Of a stretch of DNA of 61,791 bases, positions 10,827 through 52,539 are shown piece after piece. Each line of letters begins with the position of its first letter. Position 1 is the stretch's first letter. The notes below the pieces were generated by a model. That model saw only the letters and a program-made list of their open reading frames with translations, was not told the origin of the DNA and ran no database searches. The position numbers and the translations under genes are program-made. Origin of the DNA: Bacteroidaceae bacterium (GTDB taxonomy: Bacteria > Bacteroidota > Bacteroidia > Bacteroidales > Bacteroidaceae); the NCBI GenBank assembly GCA_017617335.1, contig JAFZWK010000069.1, positions 1-61,791 of the forward strand, read 5' to 3'.

Positions 10827-12965
10827 ATGATGAAAAAAATTATCCTTCTCTGCATGAGTCTCCTCTTCTTCATTGGATGTAAAGAGGAGGTCGACATGTC
10901 TGCACGCTACGTATTCAAGGAACAAACCGTCATTGGCTATCTAAAGAAGCATGCGGACGTTTACAGTACCTACACGGACATTCTTTACAAAGTGCCCGTA
11001 AGTCCAATAAGTGCCACGACGCTGGGACAGTTGCTTTCGGCACGAGGTCACTATACGGTCTTCGCTCCCACCAATGATGCCATCAATGCCTATTTGGACA
11101 CGCTGGTTATTTGCGACGTAATCGACAAGCCAAGCTGGGATGGTTTCCGCGACAGCATGACGCTCGACTCCATTCTCAAGGTCATCGCCTACAACAGCAT
11201 CATCGACGGAGGCGATGATATGACCTACTATACAACTTCATTTCCCGTGCAACAGGATGCCGAGATTCCCAGAGCCAACATGTATGACCGACGTCTTGTG
11301 GTTCATCAGCCTAACAGAAACGAGGAGAATGGAATTTTTCTGATCAATAACGCGCCGATGGACGAGCGCAACTACGACATTCCCCTGCATAATGGATGTC
11401 TCCATTCGATGAACCGTGTCGTCTGTCCTTCAAACAACACCTTGGGACACCTGCTTACAAGTTATGTGGAGGATCAGAAGGAAGGGTTCTATGTAGCATC
11501 ACTTTTGGCTATGGCCGCAGGTCTGATAGATACGCTGAAGATGCATACCGACTATGTTTACGAGGATAAGTTCCTCAGGGGCGAAATCATAAAAAGCATT
11601 CAGCCTATCCATGTGGAAGGATCGGTTTTGGTGCCTGCACCAGGCTTCTGTACGCCTGAGCATCGATATTACGGCTTCACCTACTTCGCCGAAACCGACA
11701 GCGTATGGCGCCAGCTGATAGGAAAAGAGCCTTTGGACATCACCGTAGATGATGTTGTGCAGTATCTGGAATCCAACAATATCTATCCTGAAGCCAAGCG
11801 CGACAAGAACTACACCGATGAAGACAACCTGCTGAACCGCTTCGTCACCTATCATCTGCTGCCCGAGCGTCTAACTACAGACCACCTTGTCTATCACTAC
11901 AACGAAGTAGGTTATGTTCCTGGCACGGGTACGTTAGGCGTGGCGATGAGCGAGTTCTACACCACGATGGGACACCGCCGCCTGCTGAAGATTTATGAAA
12001 GCCACGAGAGCAACGGTATCTACCTGAACCGCTTCCCCAACCTCGACAATGGTCGTCATGGTAACTTCCATGAACTGAGTTGCGACCCCGATAAAGAGGG
12101 AATCCGTATCGGAGCTCCCAATCTGGAAGGCGAGAATAGCGTGAGAAACGGAATGCTTTATCCCATCAACAAACTGCTCGTCTATGATGAAAAAACTCGC
12201 AACAACCTTGTACGAAACCGCATCCGATGGGACGTGACTGCCATGATACCTGAGTTCATCAACAACGACATACGCATGTCACCCATCATGGACGTCAGAC
12301 ACATGAATGTACGTATCCCTGTAACTTCCGAATACCGATATCTGGACGATGTAGACATCTCTGACGACACCCAGTTTTTCTACTGGACAGGTCTTGGCAA
12401 TGGTTGGCTCAACTACGATGGCGATGAGTTTACCATTCGCGGCCTTCAGGATGTGACATTCCGTCTTCCACCCGTTCCCAAGCGAAGTACCTACGAAATA
12501 CGCTATGCCGTCAACAATACGGGAAAACGTCGAGTCATCGCTCAGTTCTATTGGGGCAAGGATAAGAACAAGCTGGCTGTGCAGGGTATCCCCTTGGATT
12601 TACGTATCGGCCCCACAACGGTGAACACTACCACACTCTCCTTCCCCAGTTTCTTGGGATGGGAGCCCGATACGGGTGACGAAGATTACGATGCAGAAAT
12701 CGACAAGCAGCTACGTAACAAGGGCTTCATGAAAGGCTCCTCCATCCATTATGCAGGAGGACCAGGGTCAGGCAAACCAGCACGTGCGAGCGAACTCAAC
12801 TCGCGCCGCATCATCGTACGACAGACAATGGACCCCGATGAGACCTATTACATCCGCTTCAAGACCGTGATAAATGACATCACGCTCTATCTCTACATGG
12901 ACTATCTGGAGTACTGCGCCAAGGAGGTTTACGACAATCCAGAGACACCTGAAGACATCTGGTAA
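10827..12965 (+). CDS. fasciclin-domain lipoprotein (paralogue 2)
   Basis: This is a 712-residue lipoprotein (lipobox LFFIGC followed by KEE) and a paralogue of the 6561-8666 product along its whole length. Both have SARYVFKE just after the lipidated cysteine, a fasciclin core (LLSARGHYTVFAPTNDAIN here), an EFYTTMGHRRLLKIYES block, and the ending VYDNPETPEDIW. It begins 13 bases after the CotH gene, with two ATG codons in tandem (10827 and 10830), so it is almost certainly in the same operon. A terminator follows at 13000. The pairing of two related fasciclin lipoproteins around one CotH protein suggests that the three act together at the cell surface, but their ligand is unknown. Confidence 0.85.
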   Translation: MMKKIILLCMSLLFFIGCKEEVDMSARYVFKEQTVIGYLKKHADVYSTYTDILYKVPVSPISATTLGQLLSARGHYTVFAPTNDAINAYLDTLVICDVIDKPSWDGFRDSMTLDSILKVIAYNSIIDGGDDMTYYTTSFPVQQDAEIPRANMYDRRLVVHQPNRNEENGIFLINNAPMDERNYDIPLHNGCLHSMNRVVCPSNNTLGHLLTSYVEDQKEGFYVASLLAMAAGLIDTLKMHTDYVYEDKFLRGEIIKSIQPIHVEGSVLVPAPGFCTPEHRYYGFTYFAETDSVWRQLIGKEPLDITVDDVVQYLESNNIYPEAKRDKNYTDEDNLLNRFVTYHLLPERLTTDHLVYHYNEVGYVPGTGTLGVAMSEFYTTMGHRRLLKIYESHESNGIYLNRFPNLDNGRHGNFHELSCDPDKEGIRIGAPNLEGENSVRNGMLYPINKLLVYDEKTRNNLVRNRIRWDVTAMIPEFINNDIRMSPIMDVRHMNVRIPVTSEYRYLDDVDISDDTQFFYWTGLGNGWLNYDGDEFTIRGLQDVTFRLPPVPKRSTYEIRYAVNNTGKRRVIAQFYWGKDKNKLAVQGIPLDLRIGPTTVNTTTLSFPSFLGWEPDTGDEDYDAEIDKQLRNKGFMKGSSIHYAGGPGSGKPARASELNSRRIIVRQTMDPDETYYIRFKTVINDITLYLYMDYLEYCAKEVYDNPETPEDIW

Positions 12966-13150: not shown

Positions 13151-13226
13151 CAACGTGTTGACTTTGCGGTTTCAACGTGTTGACTTTGCGGTTTCAACGT
13201 GTTGTGTTGGCGGTTTCAACGTGTTG
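13151..13226. repeat. 22-bp-period palindrome array 1
   Basis: Four copies of CAACGTGTTG start at 13151, 13173, 13195 and 13217, an exact 22-bp period. The 12-base spacers are ACTTTGCGGTTT, ACTTTGCGGTTT and TGTTGGCGGTTT. Each core is a palindrome of CAAC and GTTG around the dinucleotide GT. The array lies in the 333-base gap between two convergent genes, after the terminator at 13000-13048. The rest of the gap shows no gene. Related arrays are at 40606 and 51554. Confidence 0.9.
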
Positions 13227-13298: not shown

Positions 13299-14261
13299 CT
13301 ATGGGAAAGCTTTCAAGAGTTTCTTATACTGTTTTTTGCTGATCCTGATCACACATCCATGACGACCACGCTCTGGGGCAACAATATCGACTGGTATCCA
13401 TGTTTTGGAGGAAAGAGAGGGAGCCTGATAAAGATTGTACTGCTGGGGATATTCCTCGGCATAAATACTCCAGCCGGAACCTTTCAGCTGAGGAACAACA
13501 GTAGGAGCCTCACGCCATGCAGGAGTGACAGAGGGACCTGGATTGGAATAAGGACCTGTCAGTTGTTTTGACTGAGCAATCCGAATCGTCTTTCCCGTGG
13601 GTGATGTGCGCGGCCATCGCTCGTCCTTGATGATGGCATAGTAAATGCCTCGATTCTCGACGATTGTTGCATCGATGGTAGCCATCTGAGCATCTTCGTC
13701 CGTGAAGTTAAACAGACGGGCAGGGGAAGTGAAAGACTGGAAGTCGGAAGTCAGCATATAAAAGGTACGCATGGATTCCCACAAGTCATCTCCCGTTGTG
13801 CCAGGAAGGAAAGCATGCCATGTAACGATAAACTGATTGCTTTCCTTGTCATAGAACAACTTGGGCGCACCGATGAAACAATCTTCGTTTTGATACCCTA
13901 TTTCTGATACTTTGTCGAAAGCCTTCCTGTCAAGATTACGTGTCTTCCACGTGATCAAATCCTTAGAATAATAAAGGATGGGAGTATGAAGCCGTCCTAC
14001 TGGCTTGCGACTCACGGCGATCATATAATAGATTCCGTCTCCACCCTTCACGATATTGGGATGACCATAATACTCAGAAACGATACGCTCGTAACCGTTA
14101 AGGGTTGTCCACTTTTTACCGTCCAAAGAGAGAGAATAATAGAGAGCTCCATAATCGGCATCCTTCATGTGGGCAAAGAGATAAGCGCCGCGCGAATAGG
14201 CAGGAAGGACGACCAAGAAGGCCAATTCCAACAAAACAGAATAAAGGAAATATCTTTTCAT
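13299..14261 (-). CDS. GH43-like beta-propeller protein with altered catalytic base
   Basis: This is a 320-residue exported five-bladed-propeller protein related to GH43 arabinosidases/xylosidases. It starts at the ATG at 14261 with a signal peptide; a TTG three bases earlier is less likely. The general acid candidate is E251 in REAPTVV and the pKa-modulating aspartate is D197 in TIDATIV. At the place where GH43 enzymes have the base aspartate (usually xDP) this protein reads GHP, with H67. It may therefore be inactive, use another mechanism, or be a binding protein. Its end (KKQYKKLLKAFP) resembles that of the GH43 protein at 57698, suggesting common ancestry. It is transcribed alone, convergent with the fasciclin operon. 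Confidence 0.75.
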   Translation of the reverse strand: MKRYFLYSVLLELAFLVVLPAYSRGAYLFAHMKDADYGALYYSLSLDGKKWTTLNGYERIVSEYYGHPNIVKGGDGIYYMIAVSRKPVGRLHTPILYYSKDLITWKTRNLDRKAFDKVSEIGYQNEDCFIGAPKLFYDKESNQFIVTWHAFLPGTTGDDLWESMRTFYMLTSDFQSFTSPARLFNFTDEDAQMATIDATIVENRGIYYAIIKDERWPRTSPTGKTIRIAQSKQLTGPYSNPGPSVTPAWREAPTVVPQLKGSGWSIYAEEYPQQYNLYQAPSLSSKTWIPVDIVAPERGRHGCVIRISKKQYKKLLKAFP

Positions 14262-14292
14262 CAACTCAATGTATTTTCATGCAATGATGCCA

Positions 14293-28084: not shown

Positions 28085-29911
28085 TTACTTACGAACAGGA
28101 CGAATCGTCATACCATAGCAACGATTTTGAGTATTAATTATCTTCATCGCTGTTATAACTCCATCCTCTACACTTATATAAAAAGAACTTCCCTTAACAT
28201 CCTTACTGGCATTATTGGCCCAATAATATCCATTATCATACGTTGTCGTTTCATTCTTGACAATTCCAGAAATAGGAAGGAATAATGTTGGAGAACCAGA
28301 AATTCTATTGTAAAATTTTATACCATATATTGTCTTCCCATTGTACTGTCTAGATGTGTACTCCTTTCTACAGTCATTAAGCTCTGCCAATTGTCCAGAT
28401 GTCGGCATACACCATTCATCACCCCAAAGCTGAGTGGCAGCATCATCTTCTGATTGTAAAATGGTTAATCCATCTGGCATGCCTCCTCCTGCCCAAATAT
28501 CGTTAGCTTGACAATATTTCGTAAATGATGTGTTTGTTCCATTACAATGAGCATAAGTAGACCAATTATATGTGGTCTTAGGCTCCGTCTCTCCCCAAGC
28601 GAAGTAATAGCCCATATCAGCAGGATCCTCCGCACCAAGATTACACGTAGCCCAAAGGGTTCCGCTCGTCAATCCTAAATCCACATATTTATGCTCAACA
28701 GGTACTGTTACTTCACATGTCGCAGATACACCACTATCATCTGTTGCTGTACAGGTGATGATTGCAGTTCCAGCTGCAACTGCTGTCACAACTCCATCTT
28801 CCACGGTAGCAACAGCCTCCGCACTACTGCTCCAAGTCACCTCCTTGTTGCTTGCATACTCGGGAGTCACCGTAGCTTCTATTGTTTGGGTATTACCGGT
28901 TTTCAATTTAATCGATGACTGCGAAAGAGTAATTCCCATGACCAATATCACTTTCGGGCTTACCGTCACTTCACACGTTGCATTAACCCTACTACCATCT
29001 GTTGAAGCACAGGTAATGGTTGCCGTTCCGGGTGCAACTGCTGTCACGACTCCATTCTCCACGGTAGCAACAGCCTCAGCATTACTGCTCCACGTAACCT
29101 CCTTATTGCTTGCATCCTCGGGAAGCACTGAAAATTCTATCGTTTCGGTATTATTTACTTCCAAATCAAGTGAAGATGGTGAAAGGGTAATCTCCGTAAT
29201 CAATGTCTGTTGAGTTATCGTCACTTCACACGATGCAGTTACTTCACTGCCATCGGTTGCAGCACAGGTGATGGTGACCATTCCTGGTGCAATAGCCGTA
29301 ATCACGCCATTCTCAACGGTAGCAAGAGCCTCATCACTACTGCTCCAAATCACTATTTGACGAGCATCTTCTGGAGTCACCGTTGCCATTATGGGTTCGG
29401 AAACATTGCCAGCTTTGAGTTCAAGCGTGGTTTGTGACAAGGTAATGCTCTCAACCTTCACCTTATTTGACAAAAGATACTCCACAAAATCCCCTACTTT
29501 ATTGTCAAAAATGCGTATTTGTGAATCAGACATTTTCTCGACATACAACATGACTTCCGTTTTTCCACTATCTTTATCAGAAAGAATCAACTTCTGCAAG
29601 TTAGGATAATACTGATAAGAATATTTCTTGGCATTGTAAGTGGCTTCCGTTTCGTCAAAAATGACAATACTTTCATTGTCAGACGTTTCCCATGTACCAT
29701 ACAATCCTGTGTTATCAATCTCGAACATGCCAATACCCGGATTTTCAATGGGTATAGGGGCTTGTCTCCCCATAACCATATCCACCAAAGTCGTCACATC
29801 TTCTACAGTCAAATCACCATCGTCATTCATGTCGCCCTTCAGCAATTGTTGGGCATTCATTGAGGTAACTGTGCAAAAGAGCACCATCAAAGAAAGTATT
29901 ATCTTCTTCAT
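28085..29911 (-). CDS. BIG2/FISUMP surface protein with dockerin-like start
   Basis: This is a 608-residue exported protein. After the signal peptide comes a calcium-loop motif of dockerin type (GDMNDDGDLTVEDVTTLVD). A strand-rich region follows, then three bacterial Ig-like (BIG2) domains in tandem, recognised by ITLS...TLEL, VTWSSNAEAVATVENG and CEVTV repeats, roughly residues 155-400. The C-terminal 200 residues are a FISUMP-type domain (YVDLGLTSGTLWATCNLG, WGETEPK, CMPTSGQLAELNDC, SGIVKNETTTYDNGYYW). There is no catalytic signature. A role as adhesin or scaffolded surface protein is likely. The near-identical BIG2 repeats could recombine or collapse in assembly. Confidence 0.88.
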   Translation of the reverse strand: MKKIILSLMVLFCTVTSMNAQQLLKGDMNDDGDLTVEDVTTLVDMVMGRQAPIPIENPGIGMFEIDNTGLYGTWETSDNESIVIFDETEATYNAKKYSYQYYPNLQKLILSDKDSGKTEVMLYVEKMSDSQIRIFDNKVGDFVEYLLSNKVKVESITLSQTTLELKAGNVSEPIMATVTPEDARQIVIWSSSDEALATVENGVITAIAPGMVTITCAATDGSEVTASCEVTITQQTLITEITLSPSSLDLEVNNTETIEFSVLPEDASNKEVTWSSNAEAVATVENGVVTAVAPGTATITCASTDGSRVNATCEVTVSPKVILVMGITLSQSSIKLKTGNTQTIEATVTPEYASNKEVTWSSSAEAVATVEDGVVTAVAAGTAIITCTATDDSGVSATCEVTVPVEHKYVDLGLTSGTLWATCNLGAEDPADMGYYFAWGETEPKTTYNWSTYAHCNGTNTSFTKYCQANDIWAGGGMPDGLTILQSEDDAATQLWGDEWCMPTSGQLAELNDCRKEYTSRQYNGKTIYGIKFYNRISGSPTLFLPISGIVKNETTTYDNGYYWANNASKDVKGSSFYISVEDGVITAMKIINTQNRCYGMTIRPVRK

Positions 29912-38397: not shown

Positions 38398-38429
38398 CGA
38401 TTAAGTGAGCGTAATTCCAAAGATTTTTG

Positions 38430-38438
38430 TAACTTTGC
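38430..38438 (+). promoter_or_regulatory. -7 box for the GH29-GH16 gene
   Basis: TAACTTTGC matches TAnnTTTG and is 20 bases before the ATG at 38459. It lies 32 bases from the divergent GH3 -7 box, so the two promoters share their upstream sequence. Confidence 0.7.
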
Positions 38439-38458
38439 CAAACAAAAACGTTAAGACC

Positions 38459-40588
38459 ATGAACAAGATGACTGACACGAGACGAAAGAAGAAAGTTTTC
38501 ATTACCCTGTTGTTCCTGTTGCTCCCCTTCCTGACGGGAGCGCAATCTATGGTGCACGAGCGATCCAGCACCTACATTCCCCCAAAGGAAACGGAAGTGC
38601 AGAAGAAACTGGCGGACTGGCAGGACCTGAAGTTCGGCATGCTGCTTCACTGGGGCATCTATTCGGTCCCTGGTATCTGCGAATCATGGACCATCACGAG
38701 CGAGGACTGGATAAAGCCCGACACCACACGCACCTACGAGGAATATAAACAATGGTACTGGGGACTCATCAACGAGTTCAATCCCACGCAGTTCGATCCC
38801 GAGCAGTGGGCAAGAGTGGCGCGACAGGCCGGCATGAAGTACGCCATCTTCACCACCAAACATCACGACGGGTTCTGTCTGTTCGATTCCAAGGAAACGG
38901 ACTTCACCGTCACCCATAGCGCCTTCGCAGGGGACCCCAAGCAGGATGTGGCGAGATACGTCTTCGATGCCTTCCGCAACGAGGGGATGATGATGGGAGC
39001 CTATTTCAGCAAACCCGACTGGCACAGTCCCTACTACTGGTGGCCCTCAAAGGCAACGAGCAACCGGAGTCACAACTATTCCATCAAGCAGTATCCTGAG
39101 CGGTGGAAGAAATACAAGAGCTTCGTCTACAATCAGATTTCGGAACTGATGCACGGCTATGGTCCGCTGGACATTCTCTGGTTGGATGGAGGCTGGTGTA
39201 CGGCTCCCCACGAGGACATCGGGTTGGACAGCATCGTGGAGATGTCGAGAAAGGTGCAGCCTGGACTGATTGTGGTGGAGCGAGCCTGTCCAGGCAAGTT
39301 CGAGAACTACCAGACACCCGAGCAGACGATACCTGACCACCAGATCCTGAACCCCTGGGAGAGTTGCATCACGCTCACGAACGATTGGGGATGGGTACCC
39401 AAGCCTACCTTCAAATCGCCTGCAACCGTCCTGCGCATGCTCAGCGAGATCGTAGCGAAGGGAGGTTCTCTGGTGCTGGGTGTGGGACCTACGCCGCAGG
39501 GGCTCATCGAGGAGGAAGCCGTCAGCCGACTGCAACAGATAGGCAAATGGCTGGAGGCCAACGGGGAAGCTATCTACGGAACCCTACCCACAGGAATCTA
39601 TACCAACGAGCAAAAGAACGTTTGGTTCACCACCAGCAAGGACCGAAAGACGATCTATGCCATCGTTCCCAGCCAAGAGGGAACCTTTCCCTCGGAAATC
39701 AGCTGGCAGGGGAATCTGCCTGAGAAAGGTGCCAAGATGCGCGACCTGGCAACAAGCCAAAGAATCAGCTACCGAATGGAGGGTGACCGAGTAACCGTCA
39801 GCCTGCCCGCCAAGATGACGCAAGGCAAGGATGCCATCGCGTTCTCCTTCCCCATCCGACAGCCAAAGTGGAAACTCACGTGGTCTGAGGAATTCAACAA
39901 GAAAGTGTTGGACGAGACCGTCTGGAGCAAGACGGACCGAGGGACACCGGATTGGCAGAACACGCAATCCAAGGACCCGCGTTGCTTTGATTTCCGCAAC
40001 GGCTGCCTGATCCTGCGAGGCATCGTGAATGATGACCTGACGAAGGATAGTTCGCCCTATCTGACAGGTGGAGTATGGACGACTGGAAAGTTTGCCTTCG
40101 AGCCGGAGTGCCGCATAGAGATACGTGCCCGACTGCATCGTGCCCAAGGGGCGTGGCCCGCCTTCTGGCTGCTTCCCTTCGACGGAAGCAAGCATCCTTG
40201 GCCCCACGGTGGCGAGATAGACATCATGGAACGACTCAACGGGGACGCTATCGCCTATCAGACGGTTCATTCGAAGTACACGTTCCTCCTGAAGCATAAC
40301 GACTACCCCAGAAACGGTGGGCAAGGTCCCATCGATCCGGATGACTTCAATGTCTATGGGGTGGATATCCTCGAGGACAGCGTCAGTTTCAGTCTCAACG
40401 GGAAGCACACTTTCAGCTATCCCCGCATCGAAAACGAGGCGGAGAACGGGCAATATCCTTTCATGATACCCCAATTCCTGTTGCTCGACATGCAGCTTGG
40501 AGGTGAATGGGTAGGTAAGGTGAATCCTGACGACCTGCCTGTCGAGATGGAGATTGACTGGGTAAGATACTACAGGAAGGAGGAATAA
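38459..40588 (+). CDS. two-domain GH29 (fucosidase)-GH16 fusion
   Basis: This is a 709-residue exported protein made of two catalytic modules in one frame. Residues 40-460 are GH29: KFGMLLHWGIYSVPG, TTKHHDGFCLFDS, and the nucleophile D243 in WLDGGW, followed by GGSLVLGVGPTPQG. Residues 480-709 are GH16: WPAFWLLPFDG and GGEIDIMERL with E586, D588 and E591 as the canonical E-x-D-x-x-E set, ending MEIDWVRYYRKE. GH29 enzymes remove alpha-L-fucose (some alpha-L-galactose); GH16 enzymes cut beta-1,3/1,4-glucans or galactans internally. The junction (SFPIRQPKWKLTWSEEF) is continuous with no frameshift. The start at 38459 follows from the promoter and signal peptide (KVFITLLFLLLPFLTGAQ). It is an unusual domain pairing. 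Confidence 0.9.
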   Translation: MNKMTDTRRKKKVFITLLFLLLPFLTGAQSMVHERSSTYIPPKETEVQKKLADWQDLKFGMLLHWGIYSVPGICESWTITSEDWIKPDTTRTYEEYKQWYWGLINEFNPTQFDPEQWARVARQAGMKYAIFTTKHHDGFCLFDSKETDFTVTHSAFAGDPKQDVARYVFDAFRNEGMMMGAYFSKPDWHSPYYWWPSKATSNRSHNYSIKQYPERWKKYKSFVYNQISELMHGYGPLDILWLDGGWCTAPHEDIGLDSIVEMSRKVQPGLIVVERACPGKFENYQTPEQTIPDHQILNPWESCITLTNDWGWVPKPTFKSPATVLRMLSEIVAKGGSLVLGVGPTPQGLIEEEAVSRLQQIGKWLEANGEAIYGTLPTGIYTNEQKNVWFTTSKDRKTIYAIVPSQEGTFPSEISWQGNLPEKGAKMRDLATSQRISYRMEGDRVTVSLPAKMTQGKDAIAFSFPIRQPKWKLTWSEEFNKKVLDETVWSKTDRGTPDWQNTQSKDPRCFDFRNGCLILRGIVNDDLTKDSSPYLTGGVWTTGKFAFEPECRIEIRARLHRAQGAWPAFWLLPFDGSKHPWPHGGEIDIMERLNGDAIAYQTVHSKYTFLLKHNDYPRNGGQGPIDPDDFNVYGVDILEDSVSFSLNGKHTFSYPRIENEAENGQYPFMIPQFLLLDMQLGGEWVGKVNPDDLPVEMEIDWVRYYRKEE

Positions 40589-40605
40589 AATTGCGGTAAA
40601 AAAAA

Positions 40606-40681
40606 CAACGTGTTGAAACGCGAAAGACAACACGTTGAAATTGCAAAGACAACACGTTGAGTCGGCCGACTCAACGTGTTG
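40606..40681. repeat. 22-bp-period palindrome array 2
   Basis: Cores start at 40606 (CAACGTGTTG), 40628 (CAACACGTTG), 40650 (CAACACGTTG) and 40672 (CAACGTGTTG), an exact 22-bp period. Spacers are AAACGCGAAAGA, AAATTGCAAAGA and AGTCGGCCGACT. The first two spacers are the reverse complement of the spacer type seen in the arrays at 13151 and 51554, so this array is inverted relative to them. The last two cores with the palindromic spacer form a perfect 42-bp palindrome. It begins 17 bases after the GH29-GH16 stop. Confidence 0.9.
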
Positions 40682-40691
40682 TCTTTTTTTT
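40645..40691 (+). terminator. terminator built from two repeat cores
   Basis: Positions 40645-40686 form a perfect 42-bp palindrome centred between 40665 and 40666 (GTCGG/CCGAC). The T-run continues to 40691 (eight T in a row from 40684). It would terminate the GH29-GH16 transcript and is itself part of the 22-bp repeat array. Confidence 0.75.
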
Positions 40692-40711: not shown

Positions 40712-40791
40712 CTAGCCATTCTAGTGGGAACAAGGCATACTAGTCAGAACTAGGAGTACTAGTCATACTAGTTAGAACTAGTCTCTACTAG
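40712..40791. repeat. phased CTAG array
   Basis: CTAG occurs eight times, starting at 40712, 40721, 40740, 40750, 40759, 40768, 40778 and 40788; most are in the context ACTAG(T). Steps are 9, 19, 10, 9, 9, 10 and 10, i.e. multiples of about 9.5 bp with one position skipped. The array lies between the terminators of two convergent genes and is not part of any reading frame. Confidence 0.85.
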
Positions 40792-49166: not shown

Positions 49167-51383
49167 TCACTTGTTCACATAATTGATGTCCGATGGGGGC
49201 GCATCCTTTTCGTCAGCTCCCCACGCACGATTAGGCTCGCTGCCCATCTCCAAAAGCAACGTGCCGCCCCGCATCAACTCCTCGTGAGTAAACCAAGGCC
49301 GTGTGAGTTCCTTTCCGTTGAGGGTAGCCCGCTGAATGTATTTGTTGTCCTCGCTGTAGTTTCTGGCATCCACAGTGAACGTCCTGCCTCCCGCAGGTAA
49401 CTGGATGACAGCCTTCTCGAAGAAAGGACTGCCGATAGCATAGACAGGGATGCCAGGCGTAACAGGAAAGAATCCCATCATGGAGAAAACGAGGAACGAC
49501 GACATGCCTCCCCCGTCCTCATCGCCAGGGATACCGTACCAAGTATCGTTGAACTGGCTATCGATGACCATGTGGATGCGCTTCTGAGTCTTCCAGGGAG
49601 CCCCCAGATAGTCATATAAATAAGGTATATGGAAGCTTGGCTCGTTGCCCATCGCGAACTGTCCTATCATTCCAGTCGCATCAGGCAACTGAGGCCAGAA
49701 CTCATACTTTGCTTTCCCCAAGGGGATGCGAAAGAGGAGGTCCAGCTGCTCCTGAGCTTTCTGCCTTCCTCCCATCAGGTCAGCCAGCCCCTGGATATCA
49801 TGCTTCACGTCCCATTGGAAGGTGTAGGCGTTGTTCTCTGTGTAGTAGGCACGGTCCATGTAACGCGGATCCATGCCCTCTATCCAGTTTCCTTCCGCAT
49901 CCTTGGGCCAGAAGAGATGCTTGTCAGGACGATAGAGGTTGCGATAGAAGGCTGCATAGCGCAGGAAAAGGTTGACGTCGTCCTTCTTCTTGAGTTCGCG
50001 AGCCAACTGAGCCATACACCAATCACAATAGCTGAAGGTCGTGGTGATGCTGACAGACTGACGCCTCTCCCAAGGCATCTGAACCTCAGGAACCGTCTCC
50101 TTCTCACCTGGCTTCAAACCAGGGAAATAGCCGTGTTCATCGTAGAAATCATCCAAAACAGACCTCTCTCCACGTCTCCAGGCGATGCGCGTCCGCTCGA
50201 GAGCATTGTGGCGAAGTCCCTCGTAGGCTGTCTTCAAGTCAAACTTCAGTCCCTTGAACCACGAATCCGCCATCCAGGCTGCCGAATAGTTGCCCGTCAT
50301 GCCAGGCATCTCGCCGCTAAGGATAGCGAACTGGGGAATGGCGCCACTCTGGCGGTACATCTCCAGATAGGAATTGATCTTCTGCACCTCCTGGTCAGGA
50401 TTGAGAATGGTATGCAAGGGTTCCAGGCATACATGCTGATCCCATATCCAGTTGTCCGTGAAGAAAGGTTCCTTACTCTTGTGAACCTTGTGGTCGAAAG
50501 AGCTGTAATACTGACCGTATTCATTGATGTCCACCATGCGCTCGAAGCAACGGTAGAGGGCTGTGTAAAAGACACGCCTGTGGGATTCTGTGCCTCCTGA
50601 GACACGAATCAGGTTGATAATGGGCTCCCACGTCTGCTTGGCAGCATCGCACACTTTATTGAAGTCAAACTGGGGAATCTCATGCTCCAGGTTCTCCTGC
50701 GCTTGCTTCAGGCTGACGTAAGAGATTCCGTAGCGCATCATCACCTGTTCCTTCCCTTGCCCCACGCCAGCAATCATCACCCGCTTGGCGTCCGATTCGT
50801 AGCGAGCATCGCTCAGGTCGTGGTCGAAGCAGGCATAAAGATACACTTTCATGCCGCTGAAGTCTGCCTCGCAAGTAACGGTACGGGCATCCGTCAGCTG
50901 GAAAACTCCCTTCTCGTTCACGTTGCTGAAGCGGAAGAAATTCTGCTGGTCACCCAAGAAATCCACTCGCACGATACCGCTCTTCTTGCTGGGAGTGAAA
51001 GCCAGACGGCACCCCTCCAACTCAGCCGTATACTGATAAGGTGTGTTCCGCTCGTGGTCATACTCCTGGCGACGCTGGAACATTTCCTTGCCGAAAGTAC
51101 CCGTCAGAGGAAGGAATCCGAAAGCCTGGCCCGTACGATGGGAAAGCATGATCAAAGGATAAGAAGCAACCTGATCGTCCAACATGTCGGCCCGCAAAGG
51201 AGTCCATCGAATCATCTGATTGGGCAAATGTACGGTAGGACGGCACGGCTGGAGCAGAAGCCCCACTCCACCAATGGTTGGATCCACGTAGTCCAGTCCT
51301 GTCTGGGCTGAACAAATCAGCGGGCAGAAGACAGCCAGCATAAGAAGTTTCCTAAGTATCGCGCTCATGGCTCTCATTTTCAT
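49167..51383 (-). CDS. GH92 alpha-mannosidase
   Basis: This is a 738-residue exported GH92 exo-alpha-mannosidase of the calcium-dependent inverting type. Signal peptide: MKMRAMSAILRKLLMLAVFCPLICSAQ, with alternative ATGs within it. The N-terminal beta-sandwich is followed by the (alpha/alpha)6 barrel with TDNWIWDQHVCLEPLHTI, and the C-terminal part has IPGDEDGGGMSSFLVFSMMGFFPVTPG, which carries the conserved Asp/Glu and the family signature. N-glycan or yeast mannan side chains are the usual substrates. It heads an operon with isomerase, kinase and aldolase genes. Confidence 0.92.
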   Translation of the reverse strand: MKMRAMSAILRKLLMLAVFCPLICSAQTGLDYVDPTIGGVGLLLQPCRPTVHLPNQMIRWTPLRADMLDDQVASYPLIMLSHRTGQAFGFLPLTGTFGKEMFQRRQEYDHERNTPYQYTAELEGCRLAFTPSKKSGIVRVDFLGDQQNFFRFSNVNEKGVFQLTDARTVTCEADFSGMKVYLYACFDHDLSDARYESDAKRVMIAGVGQGKEQVMMRYGISYVSLKQAQENLEHEIPQFDFNKVCDAAKQTWEPIINLIRVSGGTESHRRVFYTALYRCFERMVDINEYGQYYSSFDHKVHKSKEPFFTDNWIWDQHVCLEPLHTILNPDQEVQKINSYLEMYRQSGAIPQFAILSGEMPGMTGNYSAAWMADSWFKGLKFDLKTAYEGLRHNALERTRIAWRRGERSVLDDFYDEHGYFPGLKPGEKETVPEVQMPWERRQSVSITTTFSYCDWCMAQLARELKKKDDVNLFLRYAAFYRNLYRPDKHLFWPKDAEGNWIEGMDPRYMDRAYYTENNAYTFQWDVKHDIQGLADLMGGRQKAQEQLDLLFRIPLGKAKYEFWPQLPDATGMIGQFAMGNEPSFHIPYLYDYLGAPWKTQKRIHMVIDSQFNDTWYGIPGDEDGGGMSSFLVFSMMGFFPVTPGIPVYAIGSPFFEKAVIQLPAGGRTFTVDARNYSEDNKYIQRATLNGKELTRPWFTHEELMRGGTLLLEMGSEPNRAWGADEKDAPPSDINYVNK

Positions 51384-51553: not shown

Positions 51554-51629
51554 CAACACGTTGTCTTTGCGATTTCAACACGTTGACTTTGCAATCTCAA
51601 CACGTTGTCTTTTCAAACTCCACGTGTGG
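51554..51629. repeat. 22-bp-period palindrome array 3, with compensated core
   Basis: Cores start at 51554, 51576 and 51598 (all CAACACGTTG) and a fourth, variant core CCACGTGTGG at 51620, again exactly 22 bp apart. Spacers are TCTTTGCGATTT, ACTTTGCAATCT and TCTTTTCAAACT, close to those at 13151. The variant core changes both arms (CAAC to CCAC, GTTG to GTGG), keeping the palindrome. Unlike the other two arrays it lies between divergent genes, about midway between their promoters. Confidence 0.9.
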
Positions 51630-51801: not shown

Positions 51802-52539
51802 ATGAAAAAGATATTCATCGCGATGCTGGCTATCGCTTGCGCCTCTTGCCAAGCAGTAGCCCAAGAGAATGCCCTCAAGGGTAAGAAAGTGTTGTTCGTC
51901 TATGGTGGATGGGACGGTCACGAACCCAGACAATGTTACGATGTCCTGAAGCCGTGGTTAGACAGTCAGGGGGCCATCGTGTACTCCTACGACAATCTGG
52001 ATGCCTACACCGACAAGGACCTGATGGGAAAGGTGGATCTAATCATCCAAACGTGGACGATGGGAAGTATCAGCGGCGATCAGGAAAGAGGACTGCTGGA
52101 AGCAGTACGCAACGGCGCTGGCATAGCTGGATGGCACGGTGGTCTGGGCGACTCTTTCCGCAACAATACGGAATACCAGTTCATGGTAGGCGGACAATGG
52201 GTGGCTCATCCTGGCGGAAAGGTTGACTACGACGTGAACATCAAGGACAAGAAAGACCCTGTGACAAAGGGATTGAAGACCTTTCACATGAAGTCTGAAC
52301 AATACTACATGCACGTGGATCCAGGTGTAAAGGTGCTGGCTACCACCACTTTCAATGGCGAGGGCGGTGCTCCCTGGATAAAGGGTGTGGTGATGCCTGT
52401 TGTCTGGAAAAAATATTATGGTAAAGGCCGTGTCTTCTACTCCTCGCTCTGCCACGATGCAAGCGACTTCAAGGTTCCTGAAGCCTTGGAGATCATGAAG
52501 CGCGGCATCGAGTGGGCTGCCCAGTCAAAGGAAGAATAG
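51802..52539 (+). CDS. secreted ThuA-domain protein
   Basis: This is a 245-residue exported protein (signal peptide MKKIFIAMLAIACASCQAVAQ) with the ThuA/GATase1-like fold. Marks are KVLFVYGGWDGHEPRQCYDVL, GSISGDQERGLLEAVRNGAGIAGWHGGLGDSFRN (the GWHG turn of ThuA proteins) and VWKKYYGKGRVFYSSLCHDASDF. Members are often linked to sugar oxidoreductases or glycoside degradation, but their reaction is not settled. A Cys soon after the hydrophobic core (SCQ) might be lipidated. It is transcribed alone and is convergent with murQ. Confidence 0.85.
   Translation: MKKIFIAMLAIACASCQAVAQENALKGKKVLFVYGGWDGHEPRQCYDVLKPWLDSQGAIVYSYDNLDAYTDKDLMGKVDLIIQTWTMGSISGDQERGLLEAVRNGAGIAGWHGGLGDSFRNNTEYQFMVGGQWVAHPGGKVDYDVNIKDKKDPVTKGLKTFHMKSEQYYMHVDPGVKVLATTTFNGEGGAPWIKGVVMPVVWKKYYGKGRVFYSSLCHDASDFKVPEALEIMKRGIEWAAQSKEE

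Follow-up and report, generated by a model that had tools for sequence, protein, structure and literature searches.

Three intergenic gaps in the 61,791-bp stretch of DNA analysed here (the window) hold rows of ten-base palindromic cores that recur every 22 bp. The question is whether such rows are products of mutation, members of a known repeat family or regular elements at which something acts. The original prediction, which favoured a regular element over a decayed gene, described four cores at an exact 22-bp step in every array. This was borne out, with exact cores, at 13151 and 40606; at 51554 three cores are exact and the fourth, although in phase, is degenerate (Table 1).

Table 1. Array features of the window
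Feature	Position	Strand	Gap and neighbouring genes	Basis
Array 1: four CAACGTGTTG cores, 22-bp step (starts 13151, 13173, 13195, 13217)	13151..13226	.	Convergent; + gene 10827-12965 at 185 bp, - ORF 13299-14264 at 72 bp	Direct reading and TRF
Array 2: four cores, 22-bp step (GT, AC, AC, GT centres at 40606, 40628, 40650, 40672)	40606..40681	.	Convergent; 17 bp behind alpha-L-fucosidase/GH16-like gene (38405-40588)	Direct reading and TRF
Terminator-like part of array 2	40645..40691	+		Reading of the sequence
Array 3: three exact CAACACGTTG cores, 22-bp step (starts 51554, 51576, 51598)	51554..51607	.	Divergent, mid-gap; GH92 gene 49167-51383 (-), ThuA-family gene 51802-52539 (+)	Direct reading and TRF
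Degenerate fourth core CCACGTGTGG, in phase with array 3	51620..51629	.		Direct reading

Anatomy of the arrays

The cores follow the plan CAAC-(GT or AC)-GTTG and are separated by 12-bp spacers. TRF reported period 22 at 13151-13226, 40601-40660 and 51554-51620. As had been proposed, the centre is independent of the orientation of the spacer: it is GT at 13151 and AC at 51554, and the respective spacers, ACTTTGCGGTTT and TCTTTGCGATTT, are oriented alike. The closeness of the step to two helical turns also stands, and a decayed gene is excluded by the placing of the window arrays in gaps and by a step that is not divisible by 3. A chance origin was addressed by shuffling: CAACRYGTTG with at most one mismatch has 26 matches in the window against a mean of 7.39 and a maximum of 16 in 100 shuffles.

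A search for two cores 22 bp apart gave 157 matches in G000, the draft assembly of 2.37 Mb to which the window belongs, and none when the pattern was read backwards, which upholds the view of the intergenic, regular arrays as a real repeat family. Anatomy was examined in 443,457 bp of G000, made up of the window and 20 stretches picked for holding matches (the own sample), and in stretches of G015, another genome of the genus. In the own sample, 55 of 58 distances between neighbouring CAACNNGTTG words less than 120 bp apart were exactly 22; the others were 44 (two) and 66 (one). When degenerate cores in phase were added, 34 arrays of 2 to 7 units were obtained. Four units is the peak size, found in 19 of these 34, and 19 of 27 arrays in G015 have three or four. 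The usual array is a compact block of three to five units, or 66-110 bp.

Internal cores with exact arms had AC or GT at the centre in 60/60 cases in the own sample and 34/35 in G015; the AT and GC centres, intermediates one step from either GT or AC, hardly occur. Altered arms were seen in 11 of 71 internal cores (own) and 11 of 46 (G015). Among variants with double or multiple changes, compensated double arm changes account for 5 of 22 and 2 of 11, respectively; these counts are only suggestive. Neighbouring cores have equal centres in 41 of 54 own pairs and 31 of 42 G015 pairs. The spacers carry the symmetric dinucleotide GC at their exact midpoint in 31/54 (own) and 22/42 (G015) cases, and this places a second dyad 11 bp from the dyad of the core.

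Gene context and evolution in place

Gene context was derived from the calls of a home-made codon-score caller, after removal of three own arrays that overlap an ORF so called and of 11 items at the ends of stretches. The 39 classed arrays of the own sample and G015 fall into 16 convergent, 18 tandem and 5 divergent gaps. Convergent gaps are over-used, both relative to their 14% share of gap bases (p=4e-5) and relative to their 47 of 240 gaps (p=0.002), and divergent gaps are under-used (p=0.02). In tandem gaps the array lies nearer the upstream 3' end in 13 of 18 cases (p=0.10), or in 27 of 33 (p=3e-4) when loci fetched by their arrays are included. RGIG8271 arrays have a mixed context (7 tandem, 4 divergent, 3 convergent). 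These positions fit a boundary element, and they fit as well elements that are tolerated only away from promoters, without deciding between the two.

Orthologous gaps were then compared between relatives. At the 51554 region G122 and G015 are 90% and 83% identical to the window. Across the three species (G000, G122 and G015) 30 of 30 core columns are invariant, as against 16 of 24 spacer columns (p=7e-4) and 194 of 403 flank columns (p=1e-9); this is one locus, and alignment gaps in the flank were counted as variable. In the DUF3109-gyrB gap the order of units is the same in G000 and G015, and the two are alike at 37 of 40 positions in the cores and 24 of 36 in the spacers, the three differing core positions speaking against perfect conservation of the cores. 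The synteny of this gap was not found in the other loci examined beyond G015. In G015, array 2 departs from the window at two centres and has one degenerate core; in G122 it has extra units upstream. At other orthologous gaps the number of units differs (5 vs 3, 5 vs 4) and spacers have changed, with most cores kept. Of 11 orthologous gaps compared, four have arrays in both genomes and seven in neither, a count biased by three G015 loci that were fetched by their arrays.

The gap upstream of rubrerythrin was compared across 30 loci of the genus. Lag 22 was the top lag in five of them (G000, G122, G015, G090 and G113), with 28-34 of 40 matches at the best lag as against at most 25 of 40 in the other 25 loci. 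All five arrays lie 350-425 bp upstream, behind a common tRNA-like motif. This motif occurs in eleven of the loci, one of which is cut short, and 5 of the 10 remaining gaps hold a 22-bp array. The array is of the CAAC form in G000, G122 and G015 and has two other sequences in G090 and G113. One and the same gap is occupied by 22-bp arrays in three sequence forms. We propose that the cores are under selection within a lineage and that across lineages the sequence drifts while the step and the dyads tend to persist.

The CAAC form and the 22-bp step in relatives

The CAAC form is abundant in three of 139 genomes of the genus, with 157 matches in G000, 255 in G015 and 132 in G122; two further genomes have one match each, making five. 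By rubrerythrin, which is 100% identical among them, the three are closest to one another; G066, G090 and G049 follow at 90-92%. In a family sample CAAC matches were found in 11 of 399 genomes, seven of them in one other genus (g30), where most cores read CAACGCGTTG and the spacers include GGTAACGTTGCT. In the order and phylum samples the only genome with a CAAC array was G000 itself (1/60 and 1/61). Among the matches listed, at least 80 named CAAC-bearing records are metagenome assemblies titled Bacteroidales or below, with one Bacteroidia, and many of the records listed come, by title, from rumen or omasum. The RGIG8271 arrays look like those of G343, with mostly three cores between the conserved flanks TTTTTCAAGGGGG and CCCCCGAAGTCAAAGAAA (L189-L208 in G343; L131, for example, in RGIG8271). 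These flanked arrays look like a dispersed element. The RGIG8271 flank motif was matched 39 times in G343 but not once in the four other genomes searched.

To look for the step irrespective of sequence, lags of 14 to 40 were scanned at a threshold of 0.72 in twenty stretches from ten genomes without CAAC arrays, with one first-order Markov resample of each gap as the shuffle. Lag 22 was found in six of the ten genomes (13 arrays) and lag 21 in two (4 arrays), with 5 arrays at other lags; there were none in G050, G123 and G207 and none in the shuffled gaps. The units of these arrays include TTAACGTGTTAA, TTCACACGTGAA, CTACGTGTA, ACTCCGTGGAGT, AACCTTAGGTT and AACATCGCGATG, and G049 and G090 each hold arrays with different arms within the single genome. 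One 22-bp array of about 12 units, at L261:2134-2398 in G119, has a second half that seems to repeat the first in reverse complement, which would make the whole array a large inverted repeat.

For a comparison across taxa lags of 10-60 were used, with 42-46 set aside. Arrays of lag 21-23 outnumbered those of other lags 18 to 6 in the intergenic DNA of the same ten genomes, a genus set that includes one member of another genus, G207. Other genera of the family gave 7 to 4, a G167 stretch picked for a known array contributing two arrays of lag 21-22, and other families of the order gave 4 to 2. Other orders of the class (19 kb of gap DNA) gave 1 to 2, and no arrays of either kind were found in other classes of the phylum (19 kb) or in E. 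coli K-12, of which 150 kb with 25 kb of gap DNA were scanned. After short stretches had been dropped, 19/20 were kept for the family, 18/20 for the order, 9/10 for the class and 7/10 for the phylum. In the same comparison the array density of G000 is inflated by the choice of its 20 stretches for matches, and 6 of the 20 G015 stretches are from a contig known to carry matches. Beyond the genus, few arrays carry the excess of the 22-bp step, and its lead shrinks at the level of family and order.

Dyads were scored in 42 arrays of lag 21-23 from other genomes. The consensus unit beat shuffles at p<=0.05 in 12 of 42, and the mean best dyad score was 5.07 of 6, as against 4.31 for shuffles. Dyads are therefore enriched in these arrays as a set, though not evident in every one. 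Overall, the CAAC sequence is the form of one lineage, and the relatives sampled share with it the step and often a dyad, but not the sequence.

Candidate explanations

Several candidates were rejected: CRISPR by reading, the 12-bp spacers being drawn from a limited set; a phage origin, as there were no exact three-core matches in viral contigs; and RAYT-driven REP elements by the result for PF01797 given below. Rfam had no match at gathering score in the window and three matches far below it in the region of array 2, and the open-licence literature on Prevotella, Bacteroidetes and Porphyromonas repeats yielded no description of the arrays, in line with the original prediction, to whose author no described family with this plan was known. 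Of the 16 papers in that literature that contain the core CAACACGTTG, none deals with a Bacteroidales repeat, as judged by title or start of abstract.

The nearest described case is the BrickBuilt minisatellite/MITE of Porphyromonas gingivalis. Its report (PMC4596501) describes a 23-nt intergenic tandem repeat in 19 dispersed elements, with unit numbers that differ between strains at conserved sites, and arrays of up to 22.8 units enclosed by a leader and a tail that bear terminal inverted repeats; it also mentions 22- and 23-nt repeats in P. gingivalis W83. BrickBuilt thus resembles the arrays studied here in being intergenic and dispersed, in a nearly equal step, in varying unit number and in belonging to the order Bacteroidales. 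On a reading of the published consensus it is set apart by its unit AGAYCATARTATCCTCTCRTRTG, which has no CAAC-RY-GTTG core; the arrays here step by 22, and their flanks in G000 have no common ends, leader and tail or terminal inverted repeats. REP/BIME sequences, according to a second source (PMC3733652), are clustered, dispersed intergenic palindromes that favour convergent and unidirectional gaps and bear a GTAG or CGTC tag, the GTAG types accompanying RAYT genes. The likeness lies in the clusters of dispersed intergenic palindromes and in the gap preference. The tag, as given there, is absent from the exact cores CAACACGTTG and CAACGTGTTG, the spacers of the own sample and G015 have no common tag, and an exact 22-bp lattice is the hallmark of the arrays here. 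The domain PF01797 (Y1 transposase/RAYT) had no match in any of the eight CAAC-array genomes searched, most of them incomplete and one 97% complete, and matched 6 of 12 other genomes. Plasmid iterons and partition-site arrays are likewise short, helix-phased repeats, bound side by side by dimers, but they occupy one locus of a replicon, whereas the arrays here are dispersed over the chromosome.

Our preferred reading, held tentatively, is that the arrays may be rows of binding sites for a two-fold symmetric protein that mark the boundaries of transcription units. What was observed is how the arrays are built, their step, their distribution, their setting among genes and, at one locus, the conservation of their cores; the protein (none was found), its side-by-side assembly and its boundary function are inferred. 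Supercoiled bacterial DNA has a helical repeat close to 11 bp. One dimer would occupy each 22-bp unit, about two helical turns, so that neighbouring dimers would sit on one face of the helix; with dyads in the core and, 11 bp away, in the middle of the spacer, one dyad would fall inside each dimer and one between dimers, which, repeated every 22 bp, would give the observed lattice. Such blocks would separate convergent genes, in tandem gaps they would usually follow the 3' end, and between divergent genes they would lie mid-gap. Their action would most likely be to stop read-through RNA polymerase or to hold supercoils apart, and some copies might double as intrinsic terminators. A single sequence-specific protein would not explain the arrays with different arms in G049 and G090; several proteins or recognition of shape would be called for.

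The main rival is mutational: palindromes would provoke slippage and template switching at sites where this does no damage to a gene, the replication machinery would set a 21-23-bp unit, and the arrays would have no function. Slippage with template switching clearly contributes to changes in unit number, which are seen at orthologous gaps, and the mutational account also draws on the two-unit (44-bp) higher-order repeats of G015 (L071, L074), on the AC/GT flips of the centre at orthologous cores and on the equal-step arrays of other sequences in relatives. As the whole explanation we consider it somewhat unlikely, given the invariant core columns and diverged flanks at 51554, the narrow range of array sizes, the scarcity of AT and GC intermediates and the preference for convergent gaps. 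A different suggestion, that tandem duplication has made rows of bidirectional intrinsic terminators or of 3'-end RNA hairpins, finds an example in array 2, which shows the GC-rich hairpin and trailing T-run of such terminators: 40645-40665 and 40666-40686 are complementary arms of 21 bases with eight T at 40684-40691, and the core pair at 40650-40691 looks, in its sequence, like an intrinsic terminator. The convergent preference suits this suggestion as well, as do T-runs of at least five within 16 bases outward in 18 of 54 own flanks (A-runs in 1 of 54) and a fold z, relative to shuffles, of -2 or below on at least one strand in 27 of 32 own arrays (median best-strand z -3.6; -7.4 and -6.3 for array 2). 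Any palindrome array folds well, however, so the fold scores do not discriminate, and array 1 lacks a fold signal altogether (z -0.9 and -0.2). T-runs occur in just 4 of 42 G015 flanks; in the RGIG8271 form the left flank is often rich in T and the right flank rich in A, opposite to what a terminator would show; and 4 of 22 classed own arrays lie in divergent gaps. Terminators have no need of a 22-bp lattice. Neighbouring cores are mostly like-centred and hence imperfect complements, and the sense strand has no clear preference (19 GT and 14 AC own, 16 and 16 in G015), which together argue that pairing is not generally selected. We regard the terminator reading as unlikely, though the fold data of the 27 own arrays may be compatible with a role at the level of the strand.

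Non-autonomous mobile elements of MITE or REP type, with a mobiliser lost or not known, would account for the many dispersed copies, for the flank motif confined to G343 among the genomes searched, for the patchy occurrence of the CAAC form and for three pairs of related flanks in G000 (one exact over 71 bp, one of 226 bp at 85%, one of 93 bp at 92%). Set against this are the missing PF01797, 51 flank matches in G000 without ends common to the arrays, array positions common to several species and the want of an exact three-core match in viral contigs, and we judge a mobile origin very unlikely.

Returning to the proposed rows of dimer sites, the same step with different words in several sampled relatives hints at an undescribed kind of gene-boundary element. 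Taken further, Bacteroidales might share such a class, its 22-bp dyad geometry kept and its sequence rewritten in each lineage, through a putative side-by-side DNA-binding protein, fast-evolving or largely shape-reading, that insulates or terminates transcription units; this wider proposal is speculative and we hold it as doubtful. Short intergenic tandem repeats of bacteria tend to count as curiosities of one species. Here the step is the apparent common trait, and many relatives, sampled at 20 kb, have 21-23-bp arrays of unrelated sequence. Read by a protein, the arrays would amount to a boundary or termination system in a major order of gut and rumen; otherwise one would have to account for a mutational process that measures out 22 bp.

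Other repeats were noted alongside the arrays. At L022:80-190, L038:19555-19640 and L033:10000-10060, and in G015 at L043 near 19000 and L053 near 17400, a degenerate array is joined to a conserved TTAAACGTACCTTTG stretch to form a compound copy; the neighbouring flanks of these copies are common to several loci, and the adjoining stretch resembles a Bacteroidetes promoter box. The arrays at L032:19016-19087 and L033:19558-19628, about 20 kb apart, have an exact 71-bp flank in common, in inverted orientation. A period-258 tandem repeat of 2.3 copies (28768-29348 of the window) lies within the minus-strand ORF 28085-29911, 258 being a multiple of 3. A second type of phased array consists of ACTAG words at a 9-10-bp step; two such clusters were found in the 443-kb own sample, at 40740-40791 of the window, directly beside array 2, and at L033:10654-10731, with 6 and 9 CTAG copies.
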